Of a stretch of 64,000 bases of DNA, positions 13,561 through 47,346 are shown piece after piece. Each line of letters begins with the position of its first letter. The first letter of the stretch is position 1. The notes under the pieces were generated by a model that made no database searches, had not been told where the DNA came from, and was given only the letters and a program-made list of their open reading frames with translations. The stretch comes from Vishniacozyma victoriae (Eukaryota; Basidiomycota; Tremellomycetes; Tremellales; Bulleribasidiaceae), in contig JADPYG010000094.1 of NCBI GenBank assembly GCA_017654735.1, positions 62,001 through 126,000 of the forward strand, written 5' to 3'. The translations under genes and the position numbers were made by a program.

Positions 13561-13800
13561 GGTGAGGAGGCGAGATTGTCAAGATCGAGAGATGCGGTCA
13601 ATCGGGCGGGCGCTTGAAGGTGGAGACTGGGTTGGAGACTTTGCGAGTTACTCTCGACATCATCGTTGGTCCCATGACCGGCTTACCGGTTATGTGCCTC
13701 GATACCAAAATTGATTCCGCTAGGTCACGTCCTCTGTTGGCTATCTCAGAAGGTGAAAAGGGATTCAGTCTTGTAAAAATGAAAAGAGGGACTACCACAT

Positions 13801-13930
13801 GCTAAAACACGGGAAGAGATCGAGACAAAGCGAACAAGTTGGAAAGATTATCAGATCCATCATGTTACACGCATACAATCTAGCAGAGGGTAACAACGAC
13901 GAATTGGATAATCCTCCGAGATATTTGTAG
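13801..13930 (+). pseudogene. Inverted 3' remnant of the F-box-like family
   Basis: On the strand opposite to the three paralogues, 130 bases encode the family's C-terminal end in two frames: AKTREEIETKR from 13801, then after a frame break EGNNDELDNPPRYL and TAG at 13928-13930. Copies B and C read AKTREEIE and EG(D/N)NDEMD(D/N)P(N/S)(R/K)YL at the same distance from their stops. Nothing upstream shows the rest of the gene, so this is a truncated, frameshifted relic. Confidence 0.8.
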
Positions 13931-14081
13931 CGTAGAAGCGCCGATTTCCGGTCATATAATGCAACGCTATTGCATGTGCATGTATCGACTCAAGTGATGA
14001 GCGTTCTATAGAATCAAAGACTACAATTGGGGTCACGACAGAGCTGGCTTGACGGCCGCTTATGGAAACTACTTTTCTGAT

Positions 14082-15844
14082 CTACAAATACTTGGACGGA
14101 TTGTCCATCTCGTCGTTGTTGCCCTCCATTTTATGGTACTCATACGTAGAGATGAATTGAATACGTCCATGTTTGATCTTCCTTATAGCCTCTATCTCCT
14201 CCCTTGTCTTTGCAAACTTCTGCCCTCGTCTCCATTTCTTTGGCTCTACGATCCGCTTTGATCCATCCCCTAGTCGCTCCTCCCATGGCCGTCCGTAATC
14301 TGCCCATGCATTCTCAACGATGAGATTCCCATCCTCATCTTCGTCTTCGCTGTCCGGAACTTCAGGTGTGTAATCTTCTTGACATCCAGCCCAGCACATG
14401 TGGTTGTTGTGCCATTTCTGGTTCTTCTCCTGATCCTTCTTAGCTTTCAGGTGATGAAGATGCCTTTCGAACTGATCCCGATTATCCCATTTCCTCAATC
14501 CACTCTCGTCTACTGAGTCTTTCTCATCTTCCCAGTGCTCCAAAGGCATCCGGGAGTCTAGGATGAAGTCGAGCCATTTGTGAACCAAGGTTTCGATTGC
14601 CCCGACTCGTTTCTGGATCATGCTTTCGGCCACAGGCAAAAGTGCGGGAGGGATTCGTCGAGGCCTGATAGATGACATGATTTGACCGTCTTGGCTGTAG
14701 CAGGGGTTGATGGCAAAGCCAGATTCACCGGTACGATCGCGCCAGTCGTCCTCTTTCTGTCCGTGATTGTCGTCGTAGCGTCGCTCGAAGAGCCCTGGTT
14801 TCTGGGGCCCAGGAGCCTGAGATCGACACTCATCTAGGGGGGTCTCGAAGCGGTCGAGCCCTTTGAGATGGAGCGCGGCCTGATCCGCTGCAACCACATA
14901 GATCTTGCAGTCATTGCTGACGAGCAGACACATTTTCGCGATTCGATAAAACATGTTTTCCAGCGTATTCCCCCCCTCACCCGGACCCAGCGCCCATGTG
15001 CTATCCTCCCTCCCAACTCCCCATTGAACAGCGTGATCTAAACTCTTGACCAGACGCTCTTGAGGGAACAAGAGAACGAGCCGTTTGGGGTTGAAGTGTT
15101 TCGGCAAGTTGCGCGTTTCGTGATGGAAGCAATACGGGTGGTGTTGTAGACGGAAAACCACGGTCTCGGCGTAAGGAGATAGGATTTGAGGGGATGTACA
15201 GGTTCGACAGATGAGACCACTGCAGAGTCCATCAAGGATCAATCGGAAGGGATGGGACGGCAGGAATCCACATGTAAGTCTGGCTTTGAAGTTTGACAAA
15301 CGTTATCATCTCCACCTCGCACAACGACGGTCCGGACCAGTGGTAGAGGATGATCGATTGCCATGCGATCACACAATACATGCTCATCCACAGTGACCAT
15401 TCGAATATGCTTGTATAGCTCCTTCATTGTTGGCGTAGCGGGGAATATAGCTCGATACGTGGATTGAATGGATTTGACTAGATCCTCCGGTACTCCAGGC
15501 TCCAAGGCTCGGTGGGCAGTGTCGTTGCGGGATCGCCCATAGTGGGATCGCCCATAGTAATCTATTCCGTCACCAATACAGGACTCGCATTCATATCCAT
15601 ATCGGACCAGAGCCTGTTCTCGTTCTTTGGTCCGGTTGAATTCGTAGTGTGGAACATTCACTCGGCGGCACAAGGTCGTGGCAGAAGCATGGAAAAACGA
15701 TCGAGAGACTTGCAAAGCGGAGACCAAATCGCGAGCGCAACCGTTATCGAGATTTCGAACGATGTTGGCAAGTATTTCTGCGTTCCCAAATACCTCTTGG
15801 ATGGGTTTTGAAGTGGCTTTGACCATTTGTGGTGATTCCGACAC
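14082..15844 (-). CDS. F-box-like family protein, copy C (frame break or 32-base intron)
   Basis: Third paralogue. The first frame begins at 15844 (MSESPQMVKATSKPIQEVFG) with the F-box-like segment, CESCIGD, TAHRALEPG and VVRGGDDNVCQTSKP, then stops at 15239. The next frame picks up the family reading at TCGFLPSHPFRLILDGLC (about 15275) and runs through CRTCTSPQILS, HKWLDFILDSRMP, the CxxxC pair in HMCWAGC and the ending EGNNDEMDNPSKYL at 14082. Both paralogues read straight across the junction, which points to a one-base indel; a 32-base GTGGAG...CAAAG intron would restore phase but delete about ten conserved residues. Either a recent pseudogene, a sequencing error, or a minimal intron. Confidence 0.65.
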
Positions 15845-16458
15845 GTTTGGATTCGATTAATAGATATGTTGAGCAGGTAAAGACTGATATATACGAATAA
15901 AGAGTAGAGAAGAAAGAGGGAAAATGGAATCTCGTTGGATGTCAGATGTTATTTATTATGTATCTCCCCTTTGCATCTTGTTGATCGACTCGTTTGGAAA
16001 ATAGCGCAAGAGCGCTAACATGCATCCTGTGGGTTAGCGAAATGTCTTGGATGGCACAAACTCACCTTGTAACCCGCTTGAGATCTAGATCTGAGCCTAA
16101 ATGTTCAAAGCTTGTTCCCATGTCGACCTTACTTCTCCATGTCCAATCGCATGGCGTTACTTTGCCCAGTCTGGCCTGACGCACTACTGTGTCTACAGTT
16201 GGTGTGGTTGTGGCGTGTTGTGCAATACCACATATGTGACCCCATGCATATACATCGTACAGCACCGAGCACAATATATTCATGACGAGAGAAGCTAGGC
16301 CCGCGCAGAAGGAATTAGGCACATGACACCTACAACGCGCGTTCGTTGTAATCGTCACTGTCAGCTCTATTCTATTCCTACTTTCTCTTCCTCTACTTAT
16401 ACATTACTTTCCTTCTTTAGCTAGCTACTATAACCCCCCATACAGTAGCTAATCAATA
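15845..16458. promoter_or_regulatory. Divergent intergenic region between F-box copy C and RPN1
   Basis: This 614-base region separates two opposed start codons and must hold both promoters. The 100 bases before RPN1 are rich in pyrimidine tracts (TTCTCTTCCTC-type) and end CAGTAGCTAATCAATA just before the ATG. No PACE-type proteasome element was recognised with confidence. Confidence 0.45.
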
Positions 16459-28546: not shown

Positions 28547-30452
28547 CTACGCACTGGGTTTATCATCTTGCGCCGACTGTATAGCTTCTTGCGAAGATGT
28601 GATCTCTCTCGAAAATCTCCAGGCGGGTATTCGTCGCTCGTACAACTCGTCGAGCTCGGCGTATGTCCGTCCCATTGTTTCTGGAACAGTGAACCATACG
28701 AGCACTGTAAAGAGTGCTGCTAGAGGACCGAAGAAGAAACCGATTTTTGCACCCCAGCCAGCGTACTGTGGCGACAACATGAGAGGTACTGTATAATTCT
28801 GAAGTGGTCAGTCTTTGCTGCCTGGATGATACAGTGTACTTACAAAGACAACTCCGCTGCAAGATTGCATGACCGCAGCAATACCTGCCGTTTGGGCTCG
28901 AAGCATGGGCGAAGAATTCTCCACGAGCGATAACCACCCTATGGGAGCAACAGATAAAGCATAGGCAAACACCCAAATACAGCACATGGCGACCAGTAAT
29001 CTTCCGATGGATTCGGTAATGTTGGTGAATCCGATACCTCCGACGACAAAGACGCATGATGACATGACTGCACCTCCACACAACAACAGTGGTCGTCGAC
29101 CAACCTTATCGACCAACAGGAAAGACAACAGGATACCGGCAGTGAGGACACCTGTGACGATAAGATTGCTGGAAAAGGCGATATTTTGTAGTCCGACCAA
29201 AGAGAAGAAATAGGGGACGTTAAACATGAGTGGTCCCCCAACAAAGTTCTGCAGAGTATCAGCATTGAATAAACAAGACAGCGACCGATGAACTCACCTG
29301 CATTGAAAAGGGAATGGTAGAGACCAATGTACGGCGGAGATTGGTTCCCTTGAAACAGGCGACAAAGCCGAGCTTACTAGACTTTTGGGTAAGGACCAGC
29401 GAGGCGTCAATCTCTTGCTTTAGTACAGCATATTCTCTGTCCCAGTCATAGCCGTCCACGGATCCAATCAATCGACGCAGAGACTTCTGGGCTTTTTCAT
29501 GTCGGCCCTTTTTACATAGCCACGCGGGTGACTCGGGCAGCCAGACCAGGATCGGCAACCAAAGACCGAGAATCGCAAACTGGGAATAGAAAGCACGTCG
29601 ATATTCAAGAGGTGCGGTCTATGGATCAGCACATGGGCCAAACCCTCTGGCAAGAGTGGCTGATGACTTACCTGTTGAATGACCTCGAGGGCGATTGCGC
29701 AAGCTCCTCCACCGATGGCATAGGCAAGGGAGAAAGCCGACAGGTGAACTCCACGCATCTTTGGCATGGTTATCTCCGAGGTATAGGCCATGACACTCGT
29801 ACCGATGAACCCAGCGGCGAAGCCACAGACGATCTTGGCGATCAGGTAGACATACCAGGTCCGAGCGATGATCTCGAGTATAGTGGCCTGATACGTCAGC
29901 TATGTTCACAAGGTTGCCCAGGATAGTGACTGACGAGAGTGATCAATGCTGTAAAGGTATACATATTTGCCTTCAAGCCGAATCGATTCGCGGTAAATGG
30001 CGAGAGAAATTGGAAGATGACTTGAGAGACAAAATTGATTGCGCTCCACAAGCCTACATATTGAGCATTAAGTTGTAATTCCCCTTGAGCATCGATGACT
30101 GTGCCAAATTGCTGAACAAATCCTGTTCCAATGTCAGATTACAGGCGAGATCAAGAAATGACAGCGACTCACCTTTGTTGGCGATGACAGATCCCGGTAC
30201 ATTAAGCGTAAAGCCCAGATAGATTCCACTAAAAGAGACGAGGAAACCGGCAATGAATAATCGCTTGAATAGCCTGATAGTCGCACCCGTAGTATAGTCG
30301 GCGTAGGCAGAGACGATCAAGGGCGACGAGTCATTACGTGGGTCGGTATCACTGAGCTCTTTGGAGACATCAATCTGTTCGATTTCGGTTTTGGCGTCGT
30401 GGGCAGTGACTGGCAAAAAAGCTGTCGAGTGGATGTCGTTGGGATCAGACAT
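28547..30452 (-). CDS. MFS sugar transporter (SP family, alpha/beta-glucoside type)
   Basis: Plasma-membrane sugar:proton symporter of the major facilitator superfamily. Six exons (30452-30173, 30122-29935, 29887-29672, 29618-29298, 29248-28844, 28798-28547) join in phase to 553 residues with about twelve membrane helices. Family motifs include FQFLSPFTANRFGLK after helix 2, PESPAWLCKKGRHEKA in the central loop, VDKVGRRPLLLCGG, and the C-terminal PETMGRTYAELDELYERRIP. A 90-residue charged N-terminal tail precedes helix 1. It resembles maltose/lactose-type permeases more than hexose carriers, so a disaccharide substrate is likely but inferred. It is divergent from a GH1 beta-glucosidase, which suggests it imports that enzyme's substrate. 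Confidence 0.9.
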
Positions 30453-31005
30453 GACTGGTAGTAGAGGCTGGTGTCAAGATAGGCAACGAAAGCGGGAGAT
30501 GTGTGGGGCCAGTGGGGCCAGCGGAGCAGTGGGGCAAGTGAGAGGATGAAGATGTAGATGGAAAATGTCTGGGGCCGTCAAAGAGTAGATTATATATCGA
30601 TGCAGACCGGATCAATTGGTACTATCGGACAGCACATCATGTACTGGAAGCTTACCGGCCGAAAGGAGGGTGAGCGAGCAGCGGATGAAGGGTCAGCTGG
30701 GTCCCCACTAGCCGAAATCCCGTCTTTGCGTGCTCGGTAGATCTAGATCGTCCGCTGAATACTACATTGGGATAAAACGGTCGAGTATTGGCGCTACACT
30801 AATGAACCATTCGTCCGGGTGGGGGTATTTACGGCATCGGCATCCGTTCCGACTACCGTCCATATTCGGAGATTGGCCGGAGAGATCGTCCGGAAGAGCT
30901 TCCGGTGGTCTCAGCGTTAGTGGAGGCACAACTGGCTGTATCTTTATAAACTTGGACCACTTGTCACTTGGTATCCTGTCATCTCCAGTCGCTGCACACA
31001 AGTCA
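30453..31005. promoter_or_regulatory. Divergent promoter of the sugar permease and first GH1 gene
   Basis: This 553-base region separates the two start codons. It is rich in CGG/CCG triplets, the half-sites of Zn2Cys6 regulators, and contains the dyad at 30890-30905. A TTTATAAA box at 30943-30950 lies about 60 bases before the GH1 ATG, and ATTATATATCG near 30590 is a TATA candidate for the permease. Confidence 0.6.
30890..30905. promoter_or_regulatory. Inverted CGG dyad, candidate Zn2Cys6 binding site
   Basis: CCGGAAG-AG-CTTCCGG is an interrupted palindrome with inverted CGG triplets 8 bases apart, about 100 bases before the GH1 start codon. Spaced inverted CGG triplets are the standard target of fungal binuclear-cluster factors, and such a factor is encoded 4.4 kb downstream. 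Confidence 0.55.
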
Positions 31006-32896
<1,891 letters not shown>

Positions 32897-33378
32897 TGAG
32901 CTTTGGACTAAGTGTTGTACAGCGTACATCGTGAAAGATTCTCGTAAAACGTAGTATGTGAGAGATGAAAGGTCCCTTAACCTTATCGCTATTATGCAGT
33001 ATTGGTGAAACACTTTCGGGCCGTCTCTGAGCCCCCATTGCATGACGAGGGCGCATAAACGATACGCCTGTGAGCAAGCAACCTGGGTGCCACGATCGGT
33101 GTGTCCGGGAATACCCGGTAATGCGCGGCTACTGTGTATTGTGCTCGGCGCAACTGTCGGACGATCTCAAGCAACACGTTAATCCACGACGAGGGGTAAC
33201 ATGGGAGCATATTGCCCTCAGCGGACGATCTTGTCCGTCTGCGCCGTTCCCGCACCCTTCTTGATCCTCCGGGCTCAGCTACTCTCACCAAAAATGCGTC
33301 CGACTGGCCGAGTGTATTATTTATGGGCAGTTCTGGTGGATTCCGATGCTGACTCTCAACTTCAACCAGCCGAACGCG
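32897..33378. promoter_or_regulatory. Region between the two GH1 genes
   Basis: About 480 bases carry the 3' flank of paralogue 1 and the promoter of paralogue 2. It includes the CGG dyad at 33222-33237 and a GTATTATTTATGG TATA-like sequence near 33311. No coding exon is visible. Confidence 0.5.
33222..33237. promoter_or_regulatory. Second inverted CGG dyad
   Basis: CGGAC-GATCTT-GTCCG is an inverted repeat with CGG triplets 10 bases apart, about 140 bases before the second GH1 start codon. A partial copy, CGGACGATC, lies at about 33159-33167. Confidence 0.5.
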
Positions 33379-35071
33379 ATGACAATAGACACTGAAAGTG
33401 GGGCATTAGGACAGGACTTTCTGCACGGGTACGCTTCCGCAGCACATCAAATTGAAGGAGGGTATGACAAAGGTGGACGTGGGCTCAGCGCCTGGGACGA
33501 GGCTCTGGTCGGAAAGGATAACGGGAATGAAGGATGTGCTTCATTTGACCGCTGGCGGGAGGATGTCGATCTACTTCGTCTTTATGGAGCAAACACCTAT
33601 CGCTTCTCGATCTCTTGGTCGAGAGTGATCCCTTTGGGCGGACGGCATGATCCCGTCAATCAAGCTGGCTTGGACTATTATTCGAATCTGGTACGTAACG
33701 TCTTGAGACGAAAGGCTCATGTCAGATCGATTCTCTGATCGAGGCAAACATCACGCCAATGATCACATTATTTCACTGGGATGTACCAGCCGGGATTGAC
33801 AAGCGTTACGGAGGCTTCTTGCCGGGGGCGCAAGAGGAGGAACTGTATCTCGATTATGAGCATTATGCCAGAATTTGTTTCGCAGCGTTTGGAGATAGGG
33901 TCAAGCATTGGATCACTCATAACGAGGTGAGAAAAACTTAGAGGAATGAACTGACGACAGCCGCAAGTTTTCACAATGCTGACGGCCGGAGTATTGCGCA
34001 AGGACACCTTTGATATGGCAATTGATCGCTGGAGGTAGGTAAATTAAAGAAACTGCACTGATATCAGTCTGGCACGCACCTTACTTCTCACGCATGCACG
34101 AGCGGTGAACGTGTATCGAAAAGAGTTCAAGGAGTCGCAGAAAGGTCAGGTCGGTATTACCCTTGTGAGCAACTACAATGCTGAACAGGAAGCTGACAAA
34201 AGAATCTTGAATGGGTCGAGCCTTTTGATGACTCCCCAGAGGCGATCGATGCCGCTCAGCGATGTCTTGATCTGATGGCCGGGCTGGTAAGCTGTCAGGC
34301 TGAGAGAAGGCTGACCTCAGTATGCCGATCCCATATACAAGGGGAATTGGAATCCGCGAGTTCAGGAGATCGCTGGGGATGCGTTACCGCCCTTTTCTGC
34401 AGAGGAGCAGGCGTTGCTCGCAGGATCATCTGACTTGTGAGTAGTCCCGATTTAAGAGCTCTCTGCTATGCTGGTCTGATTGCAGCTTTGGTGTGAACCA
34501 CTACTCGACGCGTTGGGCTACAGGCAAGGTTCTAGATTCGGCAGATCCATTCATTGCTTGCTTCGGAAATGTCGAGCATGTCACTGAGCGAGACGGCAAA
34601 CCCATCGGTACTAGGGGTCATAATGGGCACCCATACAATGTACCATGGGGATTCTATGCTTTGCTCAAGCACATCGACAAGACCTGGGCACAGGCAGGAG
34701 CCAATTGCCTGGGCCGGCAATTGCCCATCCTTGTGACAGAGAATGGCTACGCTGCCCAGGATGAAAAGGGCCGCTCCATGAAAGAGATCATCAACGACGT
34801 CGAGCGTATCGACTATTTTGCTGGCTACTTGGCGAGCTTGGTCCGGGCGAAAAAGGAGGGCACTCCCATCATCGGATATATGGCTTGGTCCCTGATGGAG
34901 TAAGTCGGACGTCGCACGATGTTTGCTGATAGTTTCAGCAACCTCGAGTGGTCTGCCGGCTATGGACCATGCTTCGGCGTGACACATGTAGATAGAGAGA
35001 ACGGTTTGAAGCGCACACCGAAGCAGTCGGCCTTTTTCATGCGAGACTTGATGAAGCGCTTGACGGAGTAG
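33379..35071 (+). CDS. GH1 beta-glucosidase, cytosolic, paralogue 2
   Basis: Tandem paralogue of the preceding gene. Eight exons (33379-33690, 33726-33926, 33961-34034, 34068-34164, 34203-34286, 34321-34436, 34486-34899, 34939-35071) give 476 residues; introns are as short as 33-35 bases. The acid/base Glu171 is in HWITHNEP and the nucleophile Glu380 in ILVTENGY. I chose the ATG at 33379 (MTIDTESGALGQ) and not the in-frame one 33 bases earlier because the paralogue starts the same distance before FLHGYAS. No signal peptide is seen. It lacks two introns found in paralogue 1 and has one paralogue 1 lacks (after MAGL), so introns have been gained or lost since duplication. Confidence 0.92.
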
Positions 35072-35307
35072 ATCTAGTTAGAAATATCATTTTTCCATAT
35101 TCATTGTGATGTGATGCGACACGGATCTTCTGGCATCTCTATCACACTCTTGGCATGCTTGCGCCTCACATATTTGCAAACAGATTGACGCTGTAAAAGA
35201 GCGGCTCTTGTGGTGCATGACGTGTCAATTGAGTGTCAGCCGATAGGACCCGTGGGGATCCGGCACAACCTCCGCTATCTTTCCGTTGTAACCTTGCGTC
35301 TATACAT

Positions 35308-37366
35308 ATGAGTGACAGTGCCAGTGGCAGTGGTGTGACCCAGGCCGGTCTGGCAAATAAGACAGTCTCCTGTGACGGTGAGTCATCCCCTCAAAGACCT
35401 GTAGCAAATGCTAAGCAATAGCTTGTCGAGCGAAAAAGTAAGCTATGTTGGCTGCATCAGCTGATTTCAGGACGAAATGCGTGAGAGCGGGAGATAATGT
35501 GGCTTGCGAATCGTGTACTCGAACCCGCATCGAATGTACGCTGATATGCTGAGAATTTTCGCTGATCTGTAGGCATCAGTACACATAAGCCGAAAAGGCC
35601 AGGCCCGAAACCGTCCAACAGGAGTCGAAGACCAACAGCGAATTATGACCCGAGCCCCACTGATCCGCCGGTGATTGTCAGCCCTGGCGTGCTCAATGCT
35701 CAGCACATTTCTCCTGTTGCAGCCAATCAATCAGGTGCGTCTGGATCGAGTGAGGTGCAATAGCGGGCTGATGACCCGAAGAGTCGCACAATCCTTTTTA
35801 CGCCGATGTTGATTTCTCCCCCTTGAACCCGCCCGCCCCCTACCAACACTTCAACCCGCTCGATAAAGTGTTGCCTCGGACGATGCTGATGACTATCCTC
35901 GGATTCTTTCGCGACTACGTCTTTTGTATCGTGCCGTATCCCTCATGGTCTGGCTTGATGCAGGATTTGGCGGGAAAGCGAGAGGAGAAAGCGGGAGAGG
36001 AAGAGTGGGTAGCGATGGTGCTAGCGTTGGTTGCTTTTGTGTCGGTTCAGGTGCCGCATCAGCTGTTTCCCACGGACAAAGCTGGACGTAGGGCAATGGT
36101 GGAAGCATGCGCCTCGGCTGTGCGGTCATTTCTGGTGCGACCGTATCGCGTTGTAACTCTGAACAGATTGTTCATTACTTATTGGTAAGTATCTACATGG
36201 GTGCTCGTCGCTGATCATCAGCCTCGCCTTCGTGTCGTATACCTCTGGTGAATTAATGATGTGTCGACAGTATCAAGGCATCAACGTGGCTCTCGCTCTC
36301 GCCCTCAATCTCCATCGGGAAGAGACGTATATCCAGTGGGCTCCTGCTGAAGCGGAAATGTTTAGGCTTATATGGTGGTTGATCTATACTGGAGATCGCT
36401 CGGGTGCCCTGATAGACGGACAAGGTTTCATGCTCCCGGCAGATCCATTGATCACGACTCCAGAACCTGGCTCTCAGTAAGGATACTCGTCGGCGAATAC
36501 TGAATATAGGCTGTATAGACCATTGGAGCCCAGCGGGGACGATCACTTGATGGACGGTTTCTCATTGATCACAAAGATATGGAGGAGTGAGTTGCAGGCT
36601 GGTTAAACCGCTGATGGCAGTTGCTGGTCGTATACATTCACTGCGCTTGCTCGATTACGGGCAACCCCCAGGAGGCTCTGGGATCGCGTTACGGCAAGCC
36701 GAGCTCTCGGTCATCTTGGACGAGCTAAGTCATGCTCTTGATGATTGTCCGGCGCACCTTGTACTCTCGAGTAATGCGTTTAGGTCGACTCAAGCTAGCG
36801 TCTTTCCAGATGGCCTGTTCAACGAGATACCCGACTTCTCGCAGGGGTCCCGCGTAACACTGGAAGACCCGAGACGCGGCTTCTTTATACAGCAAGCCAA
36901 TCTCTACATCACACAGGTATGCCACCCTTCACATATGGCAAGCTGACCTCAGCTGTGTGTCAAGTTTGCCGGGATACAGCACCAAGAATACCTGTTCAAG
37001 CTTGCACATCCGGAAATCTCAAATAGATCCCATCTGCATGAGGCCAAGGATGACATACTCGCCGGCTTACTTCGAGTGATCCAATCACTGCCGCTCGAGA
37101 TGATTGGTGAGTTTCATAGTAGCCCGGAACAAATGCCCAGACGCTAAAGCGAAGCCGTGAACTCCATGCCGGCCGTGGCTAAAATACGCTTTGTAGCCGC
37201 CACACTATTGGAAGACCTGGACGAGACGCAGCCCTCGGACAAAATCGGTCGAGCGCAGCAATACCTCTGTACGTCATTCGGCGAAACGTATTCACTAACG
37301 CTATTAGCGCAATACTTCTTTTTCCTCTCACGTATAGAGGCACTGTACAGTTTGTCCGACGAGTGA
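35308..37366 (+). CDS. Zn2Cys6 transcription factor with fungal-specific regulatory domain
   Basis: Likely local regulator of the sugar cluster. Eleven exons (35308-35377, 35422-35437, 35471-35535, 35573-35734, 35782-36184, 36222-36476, 36510-36586, 36621-36916, 36953-37106, 37155-37268, 37308-37366) give 556 residues. The binuclear zinc cluster CDACRAKKTKC then VRAGDNVACESCTRTRIEC has spacing 2-6-8-2-6 and is spread over four exons, one of 16 bases; the last cysteine codon itself is split by an intron. The linker KPKRPGPKP is basic. The middle region (SYTSGELMMCRQYQGINVAL, ALNLHREETYIQWAPAE) is the fungal transcription-factor domain. It lies directly between the GH1 pair and the secreted hydrolase, all on one strand. 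Targets are inferred from position only. Confidence 0.9.
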
Positions 37367-37514
37367 GGATCATCGGCCGATCTCACACGTGAATCCTGGC
37401 TATCTCTCCGAGCTCTCAACCTATTTAGCCGAAACCTTTTCTTGATGCCGTCAGTCTTTTTACCCCGCTTGCCCCATTTTCAATTCCAACTTCCCCACTC
37501 ATCTTATTCGCACC

Positions 37515-39201
37515 ATGATCTCCGTCATGAGTTTACGACTTTGGCTCGTCTTCTTCTTGCCGTCAATCATCAGCACGCCGGTCAAAAGATGGTCAAACGA
37601 ACATGCTCAATGCCGATTCTCGCCAACCTTCTCCCAAGAGAACGTATTATCCGACCCCGATTCATACGCCTGGGAGATGATGTACTGGGAAGGACAGTTC
37701 CACGCCAATGATATCGGTTATAACACCGACAATGGCATGACATACGACGGTACCTTGATTGACCCTATCACTGGACGAAACAATGTATCCGAGAAGCACG
37801 TCTTCTCCGCCGCTAGCAAGGAGGCTATCCAAATTATGATCTATGCCAAAGCTCTGGCGGGCGATGAGTATGCCGGTCGATTCGTCAGCCCTACCGATCA
37901 CTCTCAAGGGGCAGAAAAGGCCGCGAGTATCATGCGAACCAAGTTGGCAACCTATCAACGATTCAACGCAACATTTCCTGGCTACGGGGGTCTGTTACCT
38001 TGGTTCTATTCCAACGAGACGGATATACGGCCCTCGGCTGACTGGGTGAACAGGATTCCCGCACTTGACAACGGGGAATTGTTGTGGTCGGTTTATGCTG
38101 CGGTGAGCGCCATGGAGAATTCGAAGAACTCGCACTGGGATGATCTGATCGCCGGATGGAATGACTGGCTAGATTATACGAAGTCTACTGTCAAAGAGGT
38201 GAGTCAGTCGACGTCATTCCCGCTGATTGCAATAGCTGTTCTACCTTGGCAACGGCACCGTATGCGCAGTCACCCTCCTCAATCAGACCCTATCTCCCTT
38301 CGATCCGGCTCAAAACATTACCTGCTCGCCCGGTGATGGTAATACATTGAACGACCCATATGAAGGCGAACTCGTCACGTGGTGGCTTTATTTCTATGGA
38401 AATCTATCATCAGCGGAACAAGACGACCTGTGGAAAGTCAAACGGCCGCAGCTTAGATCTGTCGAATATTCTGGGTCAACCGTCAATACCTCTTATGATC
38501 AATCTGTCGCGGCCAACTATACCGGGCTTCCCGTCGTCAGCAAATCGATCGCACCGATTACCGTCCAGGAGGGCTTCTGGTTCTCGTCACACGAGCAGTG
38601 GAAGGTGTTGCAAATGCCCTACTATGACGACCCACTCGTCAAACGACTTTTCGTTAACGCCGAACGGGTAAGGACGTGCAACTCGGTCTTGATGGGACAG
38701 AACGCTGGTCTTTTCGCATCCGTCAACAACGTCACCGACTTGACGACGGGCCAGATTGACGGGTACATCTCTTACGCCGGTATACCTTCTATCGCTCGAC
38801 AGACCACCCAGGAGCTCGATGTTATCACCCCTTACGGTGCTTTCCCCACGATATTGGTCGACAAGGCGGTCGGACTGGCTTGGTACAAAAACATGCTGGA
38901 CGCTCCGGCGATGCAGAATCCATATGGATCTTCCGAATCCATCCGCCGAGACGGATCAGCCTGGTCGTCTTTTGTTTCCTGGGATTCCAAAATTCTCAAC
39001 GTCGCGGCGGTCCTCGGCGGCTCGTCAGATCTGGCTCGGGACAAAATGCAGCGGGAAGGTGTGTACGACGAGTTCCGGCGAGTGTTGGATAGGGAGTACC
39101 GGGCAGTCTTTTCCGATGTCAAGGGGGAAGATGTGGAAATGTGTTTGCCCGATTATCAGGTGCCGACCGGTTTGATACACGATTATTCCGAATGTCGATG
39201 A
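37515..39201 (+). CDS. Secreted glycoside-hydrolase-like protein, alpha/alpha-barrel type
   Basis: Two exons (37515-38198, 38236-39201) give 549 residues. The N-terminus (SLRLWLVFFLPSIIST) is a signal peptide, and ten N-glycosylation sequons can be counted (NVS, NAT, NET, NGT, NQT, NIT, NLS, NTS, NYT, NVT), so it is secreted or on the cell wall. Motifs such as GYGGLLPWFYSNE, VNRIPALDNGELLWSVYAAV, EGFWFSSHEQWKVLQMPY and DVITPYGAFPTILVDKAVGL recall helical-barrel polysaccharide hydrolases with repeated acidic loops; a fungal endo-beta-1,2-glucanase-like (GH162) protein is one possibility I cannot confirm. Its place beside a beta-glucosidase, permease and regulator cluster suggests it frees the oligosaccharides they use. 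Confidence 0.75.
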
Positions 39202-39364
39202 ACACCTCGAATTTCGGCAATGTGGACAAGGGACTAGATAGCTTCGCTCGACTGAAGACTAGTTCACTTCATTAATGATCCTCTAAATTATGCAATCAAT
39301 CTAATTACAAAGTTGTCACGCTCTTCTTTCGTATCCCTCGACTCGCTTACGTCCCTCGGAGCAA

Positions 39365-40466
39365 CTACTGCAACGAGATAGCCATACCCCCATCAACCAA
39401 CAAACTAGCCCCATTCACGTACCTAGCTAGATCACTCGCAAAGAAAATACAAGGTCCAGCTAGATCCTCTGGTTGACCTAATCTACCAAGTGGTACGCGT
39501 CGTTCTTGATCTGCTTTCTTCGTTGGGTCCGATAGGTCTTCTTTGTTGATGTTTGTTAGGATCGTTCCTGTTATTAGCCAGGTTCGGGCCTACGATATGT
39601 AGATGAAGATGAAGGAGAGGGTCGACAGGCAGTTTGGGTGATTGTGATGTTAAGGCACGCTCGGATTCACGGGCGTCGCTACTTACCTGGTAATACCGAA
39701 TTACACCTAATCCCAAGAGGCCCCAAAGCAATAGCTGTGCTCTCCATCAGACTCTTGATTCCAGCTTTGGTAGGCGTATAATGACATTGTTCTCCACCGC
39801 CCATCAACGCCGAAATAGACGATATGGCGACTATACTCCCCCTTTGCCCTGTCGCTTCGTTGATCTCTTGAGAAGCCATTTGGTTCGCGGCGGCTTGGAC
39901 GATGTAGAATGCTCCGTTAAGGTTCACTTCTTGGACCTGTCGCCATAAGGAGTGAGGGAGGTCGAGGAAGGTGTGGAATGGGCAGATACCGGCGTTGGAG
40001 ATGAGGACGTCTAGTCTTTGAAAGGTTGAGACTGCGGCCGAGATGATCTGCATGTCAGCGAGAACTGAGCCGAATCAAGTGGTAGAGAATGGTGACCGTG
40101 ATTACTTGTCATGATAGGATATTACGACATACGTAAGGTCTTGATGGAAGTGATGGTCACGATTTGGAGGAAGGTAGACTCACATCTTTCGCAGTGTCCG
40201 GCTTGGCAACATCCCCAGCGACAATCACAGTCTTGGCTCCGGCAGCCACACATTCCTTCTCAACCTCTTTGATGTCACTCAAAGTAGAGTCTCCGAAATG
40301 GTGCAAGACCATATTGGCTCCATTCTGAGCGCACCCTGATTGTCAGCCTTTAAGATCCAGTGTAGAGCAGGAGAGACGTACCGATTGCAACAGCTCGACC
40401 TATACCAGTAGAACAGCCAGTAATAGCAACGACCTTCCCTGGGAGTAATCTCGATGCGAATGCCAT
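39365..40466 (-). CDS. LRA1: L-rhamnose 1-dehydrogenase (SDR family)
   Basis: Short-chain dehydrogenase that oxidises L-rhamnose to L-rhamnono-lactone, first step of the fungal non-phosphorylative pathway. Four exons (40466-40382, 40335-40184, 40047-39687, 39567-39365) give 266 residues. The Rossmann TGxxxGIG loop is ITGCSTGIGRAVAI, NAG is in LISNAGICPF, and the catalytic Ser, Tyr and Lys are in SISALMGG and HYTPTKAG. The whole reading, including GDVAKPDT, LPGTILTNINKEDLSDP, RVPLGRLGQPEDLAGP and YVNGASLLVDGG, parallels yeast L-rhamnose 1-dehydrogenase. It is divergent from L-rhamnonate dehydratase, the third enzyme of the same pathway. Lactonase and aldolase genes are not in the window. Confidence 0.88.
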
Positions 40467-40731
40467 TATGAGCTTGTTTGAGTATAGAGCTAGTCCAATG
40501 GTCGATGTAGGCTATATGTTAAAGTCAAAGTCGGTTGGATAGGGTTGACCCGGAAGAATGATATTCCGGACTAAACATCTTCCGATATTCAACAACCGGT
40601 CAGGAGTCACCGGTCACTTGCCGGCCCGTCTTCATACCGCATTAGAGTCAGTATCGGTATATAGTCTGTCCATCTATATATATACCCCCCTCAGCTGTTC
40701 TCTTACTCTTTACTATCATATAGACTTCAAT
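40467..40731. promoter_or_regulatory. Shared divergent promoter of the L-rhamnose genes, with symmetric sites
   Basis: In 265 bases two kinds of repeated site are visible. At 40550-40569 CCGGAA and TTCCGG face each other across 8 bases (an inverted CGG dyad). At 40595-40602 and 40609-40616 the octamer ACCGGTCA occurs twice, 14 bases apart start to start. TATATATATACCCC near 40675 is a TATA candidate for the dehydratase. These are likely binding sites of a rhamnose-responsive regulator, by inference. Confidence 0.6.
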
Positions 40732-42880
40732 ATGACTTTCCCTACTATCGTGAGTCCGTTCTTCACTTGACCAAACCGAGTTGATGGGTAGGAAAAACTA
40801 GAGACCTTTATCCCCTCTGCTCATGGGTCTGGGGGTGATTATCACCGGTAAGTCCCTGCTGCCAGACCCAGGACACGGCTGACGAATCCAGACAAGGTGC
40901 CGAGCACTGGAGTGAGTCTTACCCTCCTGTTTCACGTTAAACTCCACCTCTTCTGTTGCAGACTCGGGATTGGCGTAGTGCGAGGGATGGTCCCGCTTAT
41001 TTGGCGTCCCCCTCCTCGAGTATCGCGATAGCAGGATCGCCTCTATCACTCCAGACTTCCCACATGATCACCTGAGCTAGCTAGCAACCACCGTCAATCC
41101 ACATCAAATCCGCTCCCTCCCTTCTCTCCTCTCTCACTCGTCTAGTCGGTCTTCCCGCTAACCAGCAGTCGTGGCCGGTAACATCTCCTGCCCAATGCAC
41201 AAATACCCAGAATACAAAGTATCCCGAACTTCCTGGGGTATCGGAGTCCTAGGATCAATCTTTGTCAAATTGACCGCATCAGACGGAACAGTCGGTTATG
41301 CAACTGGTTTCGGAGGTCCTCCAGCTTGTTGGTTGATTGAGGAACATTATCGACGATTCATCATTGGACAAGATCCTAGGGATACCAACAAGATTTGGGA
41401 TCAGATGTTTAGAGCCTCCATGTTTTATGGTCGAAAGGGTAGGTCAATTCATGCCATGACGCTAGTCATGAGTCCATAATTCAATGTCATGGATGATACG
41501 GTGAAGGAGAATGAGCTAATGACAGGTCTACCCCTTGCTGCAATCTCCGTAGTCGACCTCGCAATCTGGGATCTAATCGGTAAAATCCGTAAAGAACCAA
41601 TCTACAAGATGATCGGAGGACGAACCAAGAAAGATATCCCACTCTACCTAACAGGTCCCAAACCCGAAGTAGCCCAAAAACTAGGTTTCTGGGGTGGAAA
41701 GGTCCCTTTACCTCATGGACCATCTGATGGACACATTGGGCTGAAACAGAACGTAGAGTTCTTGAAGGCCCATAGGGAGAAGGTTGGACCTGATTTCCCG
41801 ATTATGGTGGATTGTTACATGTCGCTTGATGTTGTGAGTCCTCCTTCTCTTTGTCGCAATCACCCCATCGCCCTTCGTTATTCTATACCCCTCCCTTCGA
41901 TAGATATGTCCTCTCAATCGCGAACTCTGTATTATTCCCTGATCCTTGTCGTGCCCCTCGAGACCTCCGCTTACTATCAGCCATACACGATCGAACTGGT
42001 CAAAGCAGTAGAAGACGCAGGCGTAAAGATCTACTGGTGGGAAGAATGTCTCCATCCAGATGATTTCGATGGACATCTCAAGTTGAACCAGGCATTGCCG
42101 CATATCAAGTTTACGACCGGTGAACACGAGTATTCCAAGTGAGTCTTTCTCTTATCTCCATCTCTTCTTTTCCTACAACTTTCCCAATATATCTCGCGGC
42201 TCCTACAACACCCAATGTAGCTCGCATGGCTCGCTACTCGCACACGCTCTTCGCTCATGATCTCGTACTGATGATAGATACGGTTTCAGGAAATTGATCG
42301 AGAATCGATCTTTGGCTATCATCCAACCGGATGTAATGTGGTTAGGAGGTTTGACCGAGTTGATCAAGGTCGCTTCGTGAGTTTTACCCGCTCCTCCAAC
42401 AGTCTTAGTTCATCTTTTTCACTTTACCCCTCCTCGTAGTCGATCCAATCACAAGACACATGACTCCGCACTGCTCCCTCTGGTCAGGATGCTGATAATA
42501 GAATGGCCGCTGCATACGATATCCCCGTCATCCCCCATGGATCAGGCCCATACTCGTTCCAGGCAATCATGACTTTCCCAAACTCTGATTTCTGTGAATA
42601 CATCGTGAGTCTTCAGTCTCCCTTGTCCTTCATTCTTGAACAATGCAAGTCATTTCGGTCAGGAGCTGATAAATAGGCAAACTCCCCCGATGGAGAATCA
42701 ATCCAACCCTCATTCGGAGAACTCTTCCTCAACGAACCACTACCAACCAACGGCAGGATTGATCTCACCGACGAGCCTGGATTCGGTTTGATCTTGAACC
42801 CAGAAGCAAAGATGGTTCCTTATTCATCTTTCTTCAAGGCTGAAAAGGGATTGGGAAGTAATGGTGAAGCTACCGATTAG
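40732..42880 (+). CDS. LRA3: L-rhamnonate dehydratase (enolase superfamily)
   Basis: Converts L-rhamnonate to 2-keto-3-deoxy-L-rhamnonate in the cytosol. Nine exons (40732-40749, 40804-40847, 40892-40911, 41169-41438, 41526-41833, 41981-42138, 42278-42376, 42502-42604, 42677-42880) give 407 residues. Family landmarks: SGGDYHRQGAEHW, TSWGIGVLGSIF, ATGFGGPPACWLIE, MFYGRKG, LGFWGGKVPLPHGPSDG, and the Mg2+ ligands in MVDCYMS, WWEECLHPDD and TTGEHEY; the C-terminal His is in VIPHGSG. The first three exons (18, 44 and 20 bases) are tiny and are placed by homology; the third intron is 257 bases. It pairs with L-rhamnose 1-dehydrogenase across a shared promoter. Confidence 0.92.
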
Positions 42881-43144
42881 TCCGTAGTCCGTAGTCAGTG
42901 ATTAGTGATTAGTCGTTGAATAGGAATGAAATAGGTTGTTTGAAATGTACACTTTCTCCTGATTCGCTTGTTTGCATTCCTAGGTTGATGTACTTCTTTT
43001 CTCTACCCTTGATTTTCCTTATACAACTTACATATCTTCAGCGATTCCCTGTTGCTTCTCCACAAGTGTTCCATGCCGCCAATCGACATCCAGCTTTACA
43101 CCTGCTATCTCGAGTTCTGAGGTGAATCCTCCAACGCTCCATCC

Positions 43145-45586
43145 TACTCAGCGGGAATAGGCAGGAACTGCCCAATAACGACAGAAGGTAAATCGAAAAC
43201 CTACAATCAGCTCAACACCAGATGCGCATAGACAATTGAGGACGAGAATCAAGTAGTCAAGGTAATCGAAGGAAAAGTGATCGGTGCGGGGTAGAACGAA
43301 AAGAAGAGATTACGCAAGAAAAACTCACATCACGTCGAATCGTATAACAACATGAACAATCAACCATTCCCTCTCCAATGGTCAAACTCGTAGGTTGAAA
43401 GAAATTTTGAGTTGTATTTTCGAATGCGTGTAATGAGAAGTTTTCCCAGTATGTGATTATCCTTATTATCAGCTTTCATCCCCAACGTCTTTCCCCTCCC
43501 CGATGTTTGCTGCTCTCCTCCGCCTCGACTTGACTGGCGTAGTCACAAAGGCAGGGATGGAGAATTGGGATTGATGAGATGAAGCTGATGGAGGGACATA
43601 CGAAGGTTTCGAGAATAATTGATAGATATACTGTTTCTCCCCGTCCCGCTGACCTTGTAGTAAATCACCCTCGTTGCGTTTAACAAGCGAACAGAATTCG
43701 GGGTTCGCATAGCATATCTCCCCCGTTCTGCGCCATACGGCGGTAGGAGTTGCCGAGTATGATATCAGTTTCTCAAGTTCCTGCATATCAGTTTCTATTC
43801 CTGAACCTTCCATCTATTCAGGGTAGTAGAGATAGGTGGAGAGAAGGAAAAAAGGGGGACATACGATCAAAGTTCTCTGGAACGATTTCTCTAAAAACAC
43901 TTCATCTTCTTCACTCATTGGCATTCTACCATTAGCTCCATGTTCAGTGGAAATGGGAGGAACATACTGCAGAGCAATAAGACTTGGTCTATAGGATGCT
44001 AGGGAATGCACGACCCTTAATATCTCTTGACGTTCGAAACTACAATCAGCCCCATCCTCGATAGGTGGACTTACTTTTTCGTCAGATACTCCATTAAAGC
44101 ATGATATCCTTCTGTATAGTCACTATCCATCAGCTCTTGCAACGAGTCCAACATATAGGTCCGACGTACTAAGGTTTCACGACTTTCTTGTAGACTTCAC
44201 TACTGCTCATAGTCTGTTTCCCGTTCCCATTCCCATTCCCGATCAACCCGTCTTCCGGGATCGGCACCTGGGTTTGGCCTTGTAAAGTCCCTTGGAGCCA
44301 AGTACTCCAAGGTGTCCCAGGAGCATCGAATTGAGTAGGAGTCGACAACATATTCATATTTTGGTTCTGGGTTTGGGTTTGATTTGGAAAGGAAGTAGGA
44401 TGTACGGGAAGTGATTGAGATTGAATGTTTTGGGTATGGTTTGTATCGTTATTGTTATTGTTGTCCCAGTTTGGGATGAATTGTTGATCTAGTGTATCTA
44501 GGTTTCCTAGGCCTGGGAATACTGGGTCCATTGCGAACATGCTATCTAGCATTGCGTATTCGGAAGTAGCAGCCGTCATTCCGTTACTGTTGAATCCTGG
44601 CATCAGTCTAGTCCTACGCATGCCTTCCTGAGTACAAAAGGGGTAGCAGACTCGATGAAATCCAGAAGTAGAAGGGGAAGAGGTAAAGATGAGGAAGAAG
44701 AGTTAAAGAAGAGACTCACCAGTACTAGCACCCATCCCATCCATATTCACCCCTGTCGAATTCCCAAACCATAATCGATTATCAACCCCACTCAATCCAA
44801 TCCCGTTATCACCCTCAAGCGGTGGAGCAAGCCAAATATCATCGCTCCGGACCAGCGGCTGATTTTGTAATGATGGCGGTAAATTACTAACACCCTGTTG
44901 GAACTGAGAGTAATCAGGTTGATTGTGGGTCGAGTGGTGAGGTGATATTGATACGGATTCGTGTTGGCGTGCATGTTGGGCTAAGAGGGATGTTGATGAT
45001 GATGATGCTGTTGCTTGGGGTTCTAGTGCTACTATCTTGTAAGCTCGTGCTTATGGTGGTCGACATACATTTTTCATCCTCTTCGAGAAGATACTTTGCT
45101 TTCTTCCTAACTCCTTCCGTACACTGTTGTCCTATACCCTTCTTTACACATCGAGTACATGGTCGTTCTACTATCAGCCCTTCTTGTACGTAATTTCGAA
45201 CCAGTGAGCAAGAACAACTGACTATCATCACAGGTAACATGGCTCTTCTGACAAGCCAAACAAGCTTTCGCAACCTTCTTCCTGCCCTTCTTTTCTCCGC
45301 CCCTACTACCCTCCCCAGCTACTGCAGACCCAGAAGTAGCTCCAAAACTACTACTCATCTGCAATTCGACCGGTCTAGAAGGCGACCGTGATCCACTCCC
45401 TGATCCACTAGTAGAACCACTGGCCGAAGCTGATCGAGCAGCTCGACTCCATGCATCTTGTCTCGCATGCATCCGTTTGACTGCTTCCAGATATTCTCCT
45501 TCAGTTGGTTCCTTCTCTTCGTCTTGTTGATATGGGTATGTATGATGTTGAAGTAGAGTGGAAGAGGTATTCGTATCTCGCGTCAT
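43145..45586 (-). CDS. ERT1: Zn2Cys6 regulator of gluconeogenesis with PAS domain (ERT1/AcuK type)
   Basis: Nuclear transcription factor that activates gluconeogenic genes such as PCK1 and FBP1 in other fungi. Nine exons (45586-45223, 45167-45069, 45031-44720, 44596-44170, 44122-44075, 44039-43865, 43780-43602, 43461-43329, 43201-43145) give 597 residues. The zinc cluster CLACQKSHVTCDDKRPC then TRCVKKGIGQQC, followed by TEGVRKKAKYLLEEDE, is diagnostic of the ERT1/AcuK/RDS2 group. The PAS part (YDYTEGYHALMEYLT, FERQEILRVVHSLASYRPSL, TPTAVWRRTGEICYANPEF) and the end IRRDVFDLPSVVIGQFLPIP agree. The middle is Asn/Gln-rich low complexity. Its position beside rhamnose catabolic genes fits regulation of growth on non-glycolytic products. 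Confidence 0.92.
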
Positions 45587-47346
45587 TCTATCGAATTAGG
45601 TTTGAGCGGTAAGAAGCGGTTGTATTGGTTTCCCACCAGTCGGATTCGAATTCATGCGTCGTACTTGTACTTGATGATGTCGAGTTTGGTGCATACCAGA
45701 GCTGATCGCTATTCTAGTAACCAGTCGTATGGATGCAAGCAGATGGGAGGATGGACACTGTTTCCTGCAATCTCGTTTCCAGCTTAATCTGATCGTGGCC
45801 CGGACTGCGTTCACACAATTGCTATAAAGATGGACAAGGTGGACTCAAAAAGTGGATAAAAACACACTCATCCGCCCTATCACACCATATAGTGTACCCA
45901 CTACCACACCTCGGCCCGTGACTTTTTTCAATCACATCGGAATGACTTTCGCAATCATCCATATCTATTCCGCCCGACATCACCAATACAATAGACCTCG
46001 TACTACCACTACTAGCTTTGGCGTCCGACGAGAGGTCTTAAAGCGGTCAAGGTACAGGCATCCCCGCTTTTTCGATCCAAACGGGTTGGCTGACGATCAA
46101 TTATGCAGGGAGGAGCAGGGGGGCAGGAACGTATCGTTCTAAGATCTGACACGGCAGAGTCGTACGGCAAGGCAGCTTTACTGCTGATACTACGCTTTTT
46201 CTCGATTTACATCGGAAAAACCTCGTGTTAAGCGAGCTGCAGGTCTGATAGATATCCTTGGCAGTCCCCCTGTTTGACCTGGAATCAGCTATCGGCATTG
46301 CCAGTCGTACTCCCTGGCTTCGATGTTGATCCTGTCAGCAGGGCAAGATGACATGTCGACATTTGCACAAAAGATCCACCTCTTCGGAATCATGTTTATT
46401 CACTAGGGACGGTCCTGGCAGGGTAAGCGAGGTGGATAGATAAAGTTCTCTGGTATTGCCTTCGGCTGAGCCGCTTCGGTTTTCGCAGTTTCGACAGACA
46501 TCATTCCGGAGAGTGCGACTCTACCTTGCTATTGATTAATCGGGCGCCCGGCCACGCGTCATAGTGGACCTTTCGGGCAAGGATGAACGTGTGAAGAGGT
46601 ATGTCGGTAGAAGATGATGCTCGGGGGCAAAACAAGTGCTTGTGTGTGTGCGTGTATGAATGGTCAATGACCAGCCTGTTACGGGTCAAGGATTTTGATA
46701 AGGCGTTGCTGCTTGCGTCTTCATGACTGGTCGTCATTGGACGAGGTGTTCTGTGTGCCCTCAATCTCAAGCAAAGAGTCTGTATCCGCGGAACCTGGCA
46801 CCTGGATGGGATGCACCTCTTCTTTTCTAAGCTGGGTTTACTTGCTCTAGAATTGAAGTAGCACATGCTGTCCTCAGATCAGTATAAGGGAAGGTCCGGG
46901 TAGTCAGTATCTCCCACTTTGATCAGCCTTACGGATGGACTAGAAAGACTTTCATATTGTGCTACCTCCATTCGGTGTGATAGTAGTCAGAGCTGAACGA
47001 TGTATCTATCGCACGCAGTATGCTCTGATGCATGATTCCCCCGCATATCCCTAGCTAGGACAACGGGATTATCTATTTAATCAAAGAGATAACTCCGTGA
47101 TTACGTAATTGATGTCCACGTGGTGCACCGGTTATCTCCCCCTTTGTCTCCCCGCATCATTAATCATTTCATCATCATCTACTCTGAGCTGTGCTATCAC
47201 TCTTTGTATACGAGCACATACAATTCTACAATGACTTGAGCATCACTCTTGCATATCTTCTAACTCACTTTGACTGTACTGTTTGTAATATACCAAGACC
47301 TTGTATACGACTCGACTACTGTATCATACCATCAGACTAAAACACC
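45587..47346. promoter_or_regulatory. Long intergenic region upstream of ERT1-like gene
   Basis: At 1.76 kb this is the longest featureless divergent region in the window. It holds the promoters of the regulator and of the next plus-strand gene. CTTTGTATACGAG and CTTGTATACGAC near 47210-47300 are similar words, and a pyrimidine/ACCATCAGACT leader runs into the start at 47347. Short open frames look non-coding; no RNA gene was recognised. Long upstream regions are common for regulatory genes. Confidence 0.5.

Follow-up and report, generated by a model that had tools for sequence, protein, structure and literature searches.

In the window, i.e. the complete 64,000-nucleotide stretch of DNA analysed, five adjacent genes located within 28547-39201 (10.7 kb) probably constitute a co-regulated catabolic unit for β-1,2-glucan. 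Their products are a sugar porter of the MFS type, a tandem pair of GH1 β-glucosidases (GH1A and GH1B), a Zn2Cys6 transcription factor and a secreted GH162 enzyme. At the sequence level, this reading builds on the gene structures, the GH162 and GH1 family memberships with their catalytic residues, a promoter motif common to several of the genes and the adjacency of MFS and GH1 genes in one relative; beyond these, we infer what the porter and the GH1 enzymes act on, that the factor binds the motif, that the genes are induced together and where the glucan comes from in nature. The shared promoter word is new evidence for one unit.

Organization of the gene cluster

The gene models were built by hand, and in their spliced form all five are intact, with every frame open and GT..AG introns. 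The MFS sugar porter of the SP family (30452..28547, minus strand, 6 exons, 553 residues) is transcribed divergently from GH1A (31006..32896, plus strand, 10 exons, 489 residues), which is followed on the same strand by GH1B (33379..35071, 8 exons, 476 residues), the Zn2Cys6 factor as candidate cluster regulator (35308..37366, 11 exons, 556 residues) and the GH162 gene (37515..39201, 2 exons at 37515-38198 and 38236-39201, 549 residues). The intergenic gaps along the cluster amount to 553, 482, 236 and 148 bp. As in fungal catabolic clusters, non-homologous genes presumably serving one pathway thus lie side by side. The grouping was judged to be more than chance because searches of the genome sequence found a single GH162 gene and about six GH1 genes, and because a rare word is common to the promoters. 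The SDR and enolase-superfamily genes further downstream (about 39.3-42.9 kb) were rejected as cluster members, since they carry no exact motif copy and have no role in glucan breakdown.

The first-pass annotation had listed the same five genes at this place, which the spliced models bear out, and had compared them in logic with bacterial polysaccharide utilisation loci, a view corroborated by the gene content of secreted depolymerase, importer, cytosolic glucosidases and regulator. Bacteroidetes-type loci are marked by a SusC/SusD pair; such a pair is absent from the five models, and the likeness is one of logic alone.

The GH162 enzyme

Homology argues strongly for the secreted protein being a GH162 endo-β-1,2-glucanase, as the first-pass annotation had conditionally guessed. 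A Pfam scan assigned no family, the Pfam copy used apparently lacking the PF26157 model, which is carried by the 120 homologues listed of 332 matches. The assignment was then settled by a PDB sequence search (phmmer), in which query residues 30-307 and 332-548, i.e. nearly the full length, matched 6imu/6imv/6imw with an E-value of 1.5e-176. We take these entries (PDB 6IMU/6IMV/6IMW) to be TfSGL. TfSGL from Talaromyces funiculosus is the fungal β-1,2-glucanase on which GH162 was founded, and was found by growing the fungus on linear β-1,2-glucan as sole carbon source (PMC11842490). Its residues E262 (acid), D446 (base) and H316, whose catalytic roles are given in PMC12102758, correspond to E271 (acid), D478 (base) and H347 of the window protein and are kept in all nine rows compared. 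The N-terminus is hydrophobic, as judged by hydropathy only. The window enzyme thus resembles TfSGL in near full-length homology, conserved catalytic residues and fungal origin; it differs by an insert of about 20 residues and by lying in a gene cluster, of which we found no report for TfSGL.

The insert, located between the RPQL and ITVQ segments, is present in 12 of the 46 testable rows (of 121), including the window protein and both Tremellales. Its distribution fits common descent in Tremellomycetes, but it also occurs in one Elasticomyces row and six unnamed rows. A tree was built from the window protein and 54 homologues picked by hand among the 120 listed. In it, the window protein and two metagenome rows sit on a long stem; this group is placed beside the two Tremellales at weak support (69), inside a starred set of 10 rows. 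Horizontal transfer of the gene was considered because ascomycetes provide the best named matches among those listed; it is not claimed.

The GH1 enzymes, the MFS porter and the Zn2Cys6 factor

GH1A and GH1B share 58% identity, match PF00232 (E 5.6e-115 for GH1B) and retain the catalytic NEP and TENG motifs, in line with an assignment as GH1 β-glucosidases. Neither has a hydrophobic N-terminus according to hydropathy alone. The N-x-[DE]-W segment contains E in 8, D in 30 and another residue in 2 of 40 GH1 rows; E is found in GH1A, GH1B, Kockovaella, Vanrija albida and four ascomycetes. In the bacterial GH1 enzyme SGR_2426, which prefers sophorose, the +1 subsite position is occupied by Gln229 (PMC12369401). 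The E of the N-x-E-W segment may fall near this position; nothing was concluded from it about the specificity of GH1A and GH1B, Glu being found in the segment in four ascomycete rows as well. BGL-1 of T. amestolkiae, a fungal GH1 as are GH1A and GH1B, cleaves both sophorose and cellobiose with a fivefold preference for the former; in contrast to the window enzymes it is described as a 619-residue member of the secretome (PMC7288487).

The MFS porter, searched against PF00083 minus its last 4 residues, matched with an E-value of 1.6e-64 and reveals 9 rather than 12 membrane-helix-like stretches in a crude hydropathy count. Its homologues bear names such as "general substrate transporter" or "Alpha-glucosides permease MPH3". 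It is a candidate importer of sophoro-oligosaccharides or β-glucosides; a fungal MFS carrying sophorose has been described (PMC10790555). No characterised close relative of GH1A, GH1B or the porter was encountered; their substrates could be any β-glucosides. The Zn2Cys6 factor scores 23.8 bits with Fungal_trans (PF04082), just over the cut-off of 23, and 20.6 bits with Zn_clus (PF00172), just under the cut-off of 21, the cysteine pattern being present. Its other matches in the genome are weak.

A shared promoter motif

Another feature of fungal catabolic clusters, a shared cis-regulatory site, is provided by CGGACGATCT and its longer form CGGMCGATCTCAM. The window contains four copies of CGGACGATCT, two in the 553-bp divergent promoter between the MFS and GH1A genes (30453..31005; copies at 30745-30754 and 30883-30892, both on the minus strand) and two in the GH1B promoter (32897..33378; copies at 33158-33167 and 33222-33231, plus strand). 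Genome-wide, 26 copies occur in 11.58 Mb versus 12 for the reversed control, and the 22 copies outside the cluster are all single. CGGACGATC likewise has four window copies, all within two cluster promoters, a number reached in one of 100 window shuffles. On shuffling the four promoters, any 10-mer attained four copies in 1 of 5000 trials and any 9-mer in 6 of 5000, figures to be read with the motif having been picked out after the fact. Once one mismatch is allowed, the window shows no enrichment of the motif 9-mer, with 25 matches versus 18 expected and 10 of 100 shuffles reaching this number.

CGGMCGATCTCAM has six matches in the genome versus two for its control. Three of them lie upstream of GH1B, of GH162 and of an unlinked GH1 gene on contig C3; the GH162 match is CGGCCGATCTCAC at 37374-37386 in the 148-bp promoter (37367..37514, plus strand). 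The other three are situated in an amidohydrolase-like ORF (L025), under ORFs in L043 and just before a glucosidase-II-like ORF (L044), the ORF names at L025 and L044 being assigned by eye. Inspection of the 22 outside CGGACGATCT copies, by ORF listing and eye only, revealed no clear regulon member. Fourteen of them fall in stop-to-stop ORFs of at least 110 residues versus 64% of random positions, a measure that separates nothing because the cluster copies also fall under such ORFs. The promoter of the regulator gene itself contains no motif copy. The Zn2Cys6 factor would be the protein that binds the motif.

Linkage in relatives and alternative interpretations

The first-pass annotation had named scattered orthologues in all relatives as the finding that would speak against a cluster, and the outcome is divided. 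In Vanrija albida the two genes remain neighbours, the MFS homologue Q8F55_001224 (58%) and the GH1 gene Q8F55_001223 having consecutive locus tags; this is one of four species with readable tags or contigs. A linkage of GH162 to GH1 was seen in none of the three comparable species (Thelonectria olida, Aspergillus lucknowensis and Tremellales sp. Uapishka_1, the last with an assembly of short contigs), the genes residing on contigs of different length; GH162 and MFS apparently share a contig in one of the three. Since no GH162 of Vanrija albida is among the 120 listed of 332 matches, its MFS-GH1 pair may serve without GH162.

This pair speaks for a rather unlikely alternative, namely a general β-glucoside cluster of the known MFS-GH1 kind acting on cellobiose, laminaribiose, gentiobiose and aryl glucosides, with GH162 as an optional addition and β-1,2-glucan as a minor substrate. 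The names of the porter's relatives as general or α-glucoside permeases and the dual activity of the T. amestolkiae enzyme point in the same direction. However, GH162, which alone among the products of the unit is a secreted hydrolase, comes from a β-1,2-glucanase family, and its gene carries the longer motif form; no secreted cellulase or laminarinase is encoded by the five genes. An accidental position of GH162 next to a β-glucoside module would agree with the missing GH162-GH1 linkage in the three species, but it is improbable in view of its distance of only 148 bp from the regulator gene on the same strand and of CGGCCGATCTCAC in its promoter, two other CGGMCGATCTCAM matches preceding GH1 genes. 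In the least probable alternative, the unit would serve not the polymer but smaller sophorose-containing compounds, for instance sophorolipids or plant sophorosides. GH1 enzymes often cleave aryl and alkyl glucosides. This alternative has a parallel in the bacterium with the sophorose-preferring GH1, for which a use of alkylated sophoro-oligosaccharides was speculated (PMC12369401), but small carriers need no endo-enzyme and GH162 is, by its PDB molecule name, of the endo-type on β-1,2-glucan chains.

For the favoured β-1,2-glucan unit we propose the following scenario: Sophoro-oligosaccharides would be released by the secreted GH162 from β-1,2-glucan, most likely of bacterial origin as rhizobial cyclic glucans or osmoregulated periplasmic glucans. 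The MFS porter would take up the short products, from which the tandem cytosolic GH1A and GH1B would release glucose at the non-reducing end. The Zn2Cys6 factor might switch on the unit via CGG(A/C)CGATCT sites in the MFS-GH1A, GH1B and GH162 promoters, and perhaps also controls the unlinked GH1 on contig C3. The cluster likely arose stepwise, from an older MFS-GH1 β-glucoside module by tandem GH1 duplication and subsequent recruitment of GH162 under the same control.

Comparison with known systems

The first-pass annotation had regarded the use of sophoro-oligosaccharides as not described in fungi, which does not hold as worded: fungal β-1,2-glucanases, fungal growth on β-1,2-glucan (PMC11842490), sophorose transport by a fungal MFS (PMC10790555) and clusters of permease, endoglucanase and glucosidase for other β-glucans are already known. 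The latter are exemplified by the HXT-EGC-BGL clusters of the yeast Scheffersomyces (Pichia) stipitis, several of them divergent, which in contrast to the window cluster belong to an ascomycete and contain endoglucanases for other β-glucans, no cluster-borne Zn2Cys6 regulator being noted in the accessible part of the report (PMC2784038). The Streptomyces griseus SGR_2426 cluster similarly unites a β-1,2-glucanase-family member, an oligosaccharide importer and a GH1 (PMC12369401), but is bacterial and uses an ABC transporter and GH193 in place of MFS and GH162; moreover, GH1A and GH1B have a Glu near the presumed place of Gln229. The Listeria innocua lin1839-1841 genes, also bacterial, encode GH94, GH3 and an ABC binding subunit instead of MFS and GH162.

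In the literature searched, no fungal cluster for β-1,2-glucan that combines an importer, GH1 and a regulator was found. We put forward, tentatively and at slightly less than even likelihood, that this is the first eukaryotic β-1,2-glucan locus encoding all steps together: GH162 as the secreted enzyme, an importer dedicated to sophoro-oligosaccharides and belonging to a small MFS family, a fungal subfamily of cytosolic GH1 β-1,2-glucosidases characterized by a changed aglycone-site segment (N-x-E-W), and a Zn2Cys6 factor with a CGGMCGATCT regulon including the unlinked GH1. β-1,2-Glucans are made by bacteria and play a part in symbiosis, infection and osmoregulation. If the proposal is true, the yeast could feed on glucans of neighbouring bacteria. 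Such a locus would give a physiological context to GH162, which is found in many fungi, would name candidate fungal β-1,2-glucosidases and a sophoro-oligosaccharide importer, and would show a yeast assembling a unit like a polysaccharide utilisation locus around an older permease-glucosidase pair.

GH1 genes elsewhere in the genome

The count of about six GH1 genes was obtained after hand grouping of the matches, the single GH162 copy by searching the 11.58-Mb genome sequence. Three other GH1 loci (C17:137.9-139.8, C17:157-159 and C11:4113-4115 kb) were rejected as copies of the cluster, as they are devoid of CGGACGATCT within the stretches read and their summed tblastn scores are lower with GH1A and GH1B than with other rows. 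One CGGCCGATCT is located about 4 kb beyond the GH1 gene at C17:157-159 kb.

Results

The five genes of the cluster most likely work as one β-1,2-glucan unit. Manual splicing at GT..AG introns of 33–63 bp yielded an intact model for each: an MFS porter (30452..28547, minus strand) and, all on the plus strand, GH1A (31006..32896), GH1B (33379..35071), a Zn2Cys6 factor (35308..37366) and the GH162 protein (37515..39201), with successive intergenic gaps of 553, 482, 236 and 148 bp. The ends proposed in the first-pass annotation, 28547 and 39201, coincide with the outer ends of the spliced MFS and GH162 genes.

The secreted hydrolase

The suggestion that the secreted protein is of the β-1,2-glucanase type is borne out by homology, its best PDB match (E 1.5e-176) being to the endo-β-1,2-glucanase structures 6imu/6imv and 6imw. 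In an alignment to the T. amestolkiae homologue (P0022), E271, H347 and D478 match E262, H316 and D446, whose counterparts are present in 9/9 sequences compared. In the Talaromyces funiculosus enzyme TfSGL, E262 is the acid and D446 the base, and H316 corresponds to a Phe of the other families (PMC12102758). The N-terminus is hydrophobic according to hydropathy, and the protein contains 10 N-glycosylation sequons. Compared with TfSGL, the window protein has some 20 extra residues (residues ~307–331, window ~38470–38544), an insert present in 12 of 46 testable homologues, both Tremellales included.

Only a single GH162 was found across the host genome, one 11.58-Mb assembly of 17 contigs to which all genome-wide counts refer. 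Among 7996 scored proteins 332 homologues reached E ≤ 1e-3; in the 120 listed, the named ones are nearly all from ascomycetes and agarics, together with two Tremellales (52% identity) and two metagenome fragments (82% and 79%, covering <60% of the length). In the tree, the window protein and the metagenome sequences share a long stem, which lies beside the two Tremellales with weak support (69).

Glucosidases and candidate importer

GH1A and GH1B, 58% identical, lack a hydrophobic N-terminus (hydropathy) and form a sister pair (support 88) in a tree of 40 sequences, comprising both enzymes and 38 hand-picked from the best 120 of 7633 matches. They group with Kockovaella and Vanrija albida proteins (91) and then Tulasnella (99, starred), on a branch separate from the usual fungal BGL1A/1B group; a characterised member of this subfamily was not found in this analysis. 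At the N-x-[DE]-W segment 30 of the 40 sequences carry Asp, two another residue and eight Glu, the latter being GH1A, GH1B, Kockovaella, Vanrija albida and four ascomycetes. As a lead, this segment may fall near the position of Gln229 in the Streptomyces griseus GH1 SGR_2426, going by the published text on that enzyme and the general pattern of GH1 sequences. That enzyme is sophorose-specific, and its Gln229 lies at the +1 subsite (PMC12369401).

The porter matches PF00083 (E 1.6e-64) and shows 9 helix-like stretches in a crude hydropathy count. At least 36 of the 120 listed among its 178 matches have E ≤ 1e-100, and the family is therefore small by MFS standards; named relatives among the matches listed are annotated as general substrate transporters or α-glucoside permeases. 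The closest named relatives of the porter and of the two GH1 enzymes suggest a tremellomycete source for the window.

About six GH1 genes were grouped from genome matches, four of them on the 175-kb contig carrying the cluster, C17. By eye, a stretch of this contig (L016, G000:C17:136001-146000) resembles a second sugar cluster, with a GH1 gene (minus) divergent from an MFS porter (plus) and adjoining GH43-like and apiosidase-like ORFs.

Candidate regulator and shared promoter words

Cysteines spaced as in Zn2Cys6 proteins are present in the factor, whose Pfam scores lie close to the cut-offs; its other genome matches are weak. The word CGGACGATCT occurs four times in the window, twice in the divergent MFS–GH1A promoter and twice in that of GH1B. 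It is absent from the factor's own promoter and from the other GH1–MFS pair on C17 (C17:138-142 kb). The 9-mer reached four copies in 1 of 100 whole-window shuffles; with one mismatch it showed no enrichment in the window (25 vs 18 expected). Genome-wide there are 26 copies of CGGACGATCT vs 12 of the reversed control, and the 22 outside the cluster, all single, predict 0.002 copies per 1035 bp.

Because CGGACGATCT was picked after being noticed, it is fairly judged against words of any sequence. When the four promoters were shuffled 5000 times with dinucleotides preserved, one shuffle held some 10-mer at four copies or more and six held some 9-mer at that number. Elsewhere in the window, such a 10-mer occurred in 7 of 257 overlapping real stretches matching the promoters in total length, each time as the simple repeat AGAGAGAGAG. 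In an ORF listing none of the 22 outside copies was clearly linked to sugar use; 14 of them lie under ORFs ≥110 aa (random positions, 64%), a measure which does not discriminate, since the cluster copies also lie under such chance ORFs.

The GH162 promoter carries CGGCCGATCT (18 copies genome-wide, control 10). The longer word CGGMCGATCTCAM has six genome matches (control 2): at GH1B, at GH162, at an unlinked GH1 gene on contig C3 and at three other places. At C3, CGGCCGATCTCAC (L019:4624-4636; G000:C3:180624-180636) lies ~90 bp ahead of the GH1 ATG and is identical over 13 bases to the GH162 promoter. Among the fungal sequences compared, this GH1 is closest by summed tblastn score to P0131, P0130 and P0137, all of the GH1A/GH1B subfamily, and the gene is a candidate for inclusion in the regulon.

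Discussion

In the proposed scenario, secreted GH162 would cut β-1,2-glucan to sophoro-oligosaccharides, which the MFS porter would bring into the cell and GH1A and GH1B would turn into glucose, while the Zn2Cys6 factor would switch on the unit via CGG(A/C)CGATCT. The sequence itself shows the protein families, the catalytic residues, the hydrophobic N-terminus of GH162 that both GH1 enzymes lack and the shared sites; the MFS and GH1 substrates, binding of the factor to the site, and induction are inferred.

The best rival is a general β-glucoside module which acquired a GH162 gene. Linkage in relatives was judged by equal contig size, a stand-in for contig identity that is silent on gene distance. 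The MFS and GH1 relatives are linked in one of four readable species, Vanrija albida, with consecutive tags (Q8F55_001224 and Q8F55_001223) and contigs of equal size; the contigs differ in Apiotrichum porosum, Saitozyma podzolica (weak MFS match, 36%) and Thelonectria olida. Filobasidium floriforme, where they differ too, was left out because its records represent several members. GH162 and MFS contigs are equally sized in Microdochium trichocladiopsis and unequal in Leptodontidium and T. olida (1/3), and GH162 and GH1-subfamily genes sit on contigs of unequal size in T. olida, Aspergillus lucknowensis and Uapishka_1 (0/3), as also in Penicillium crustosum, left uncounted with records representing many members. 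Synteny, proposed at first pass as a check on the cluster, gave a divided answer in the species readable here: MFS–GH1 adjacency in V. albida speaks for it, and against it, no GH162–GH1 linkage was seen in the three species that could be compared.

The initial remark that such a system was not known to be described in fungi may hold for the cluster, within the literature searched, but not for its parts. TfSGL, the GH162 founder, was discovered via growth of T. funiculosus on linear β-1,2-glucan (PMC11842490), and a fungal GH1 preferring sophorose (PMC7288487) and a fungal MFS carrying it (PMC10790555) are known. Bacterial β-1,2-glucan clusters that combine an importer with GH3 or GH1 are known (PMC12369401). 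S. stipitis has permease–endoglucanase–glucosidase clusters, but for other β-glucans (PMC2784038). A fungal β-1,2-glucan cluster was not found in titles and abstract beginnings of the open-licence papers listed.

Surroundings of the cluster

Upstream, across ~2.9 kb without an assigned gene, lies a glycogen synthase gene (PF05693). The downstream neighbours (window ~39300–42900) are an SDR gene (minus) and a member of the enolase superfamily (MR_MLE_C) that by eye looks like an L-rhamnonate dehydratase; the two may make up a sugar-acid or rhamnose pair of their own. The gene at 43469–45595 (minus) encodes an ERT1/acuK family PAS domain (PF24990) and appears by eye to be a Zn2Cys6 factor. At 7594–15856, the minus strand carries a local family of three similar genes in tandem, F-box-like by eye in their N-terminal part.
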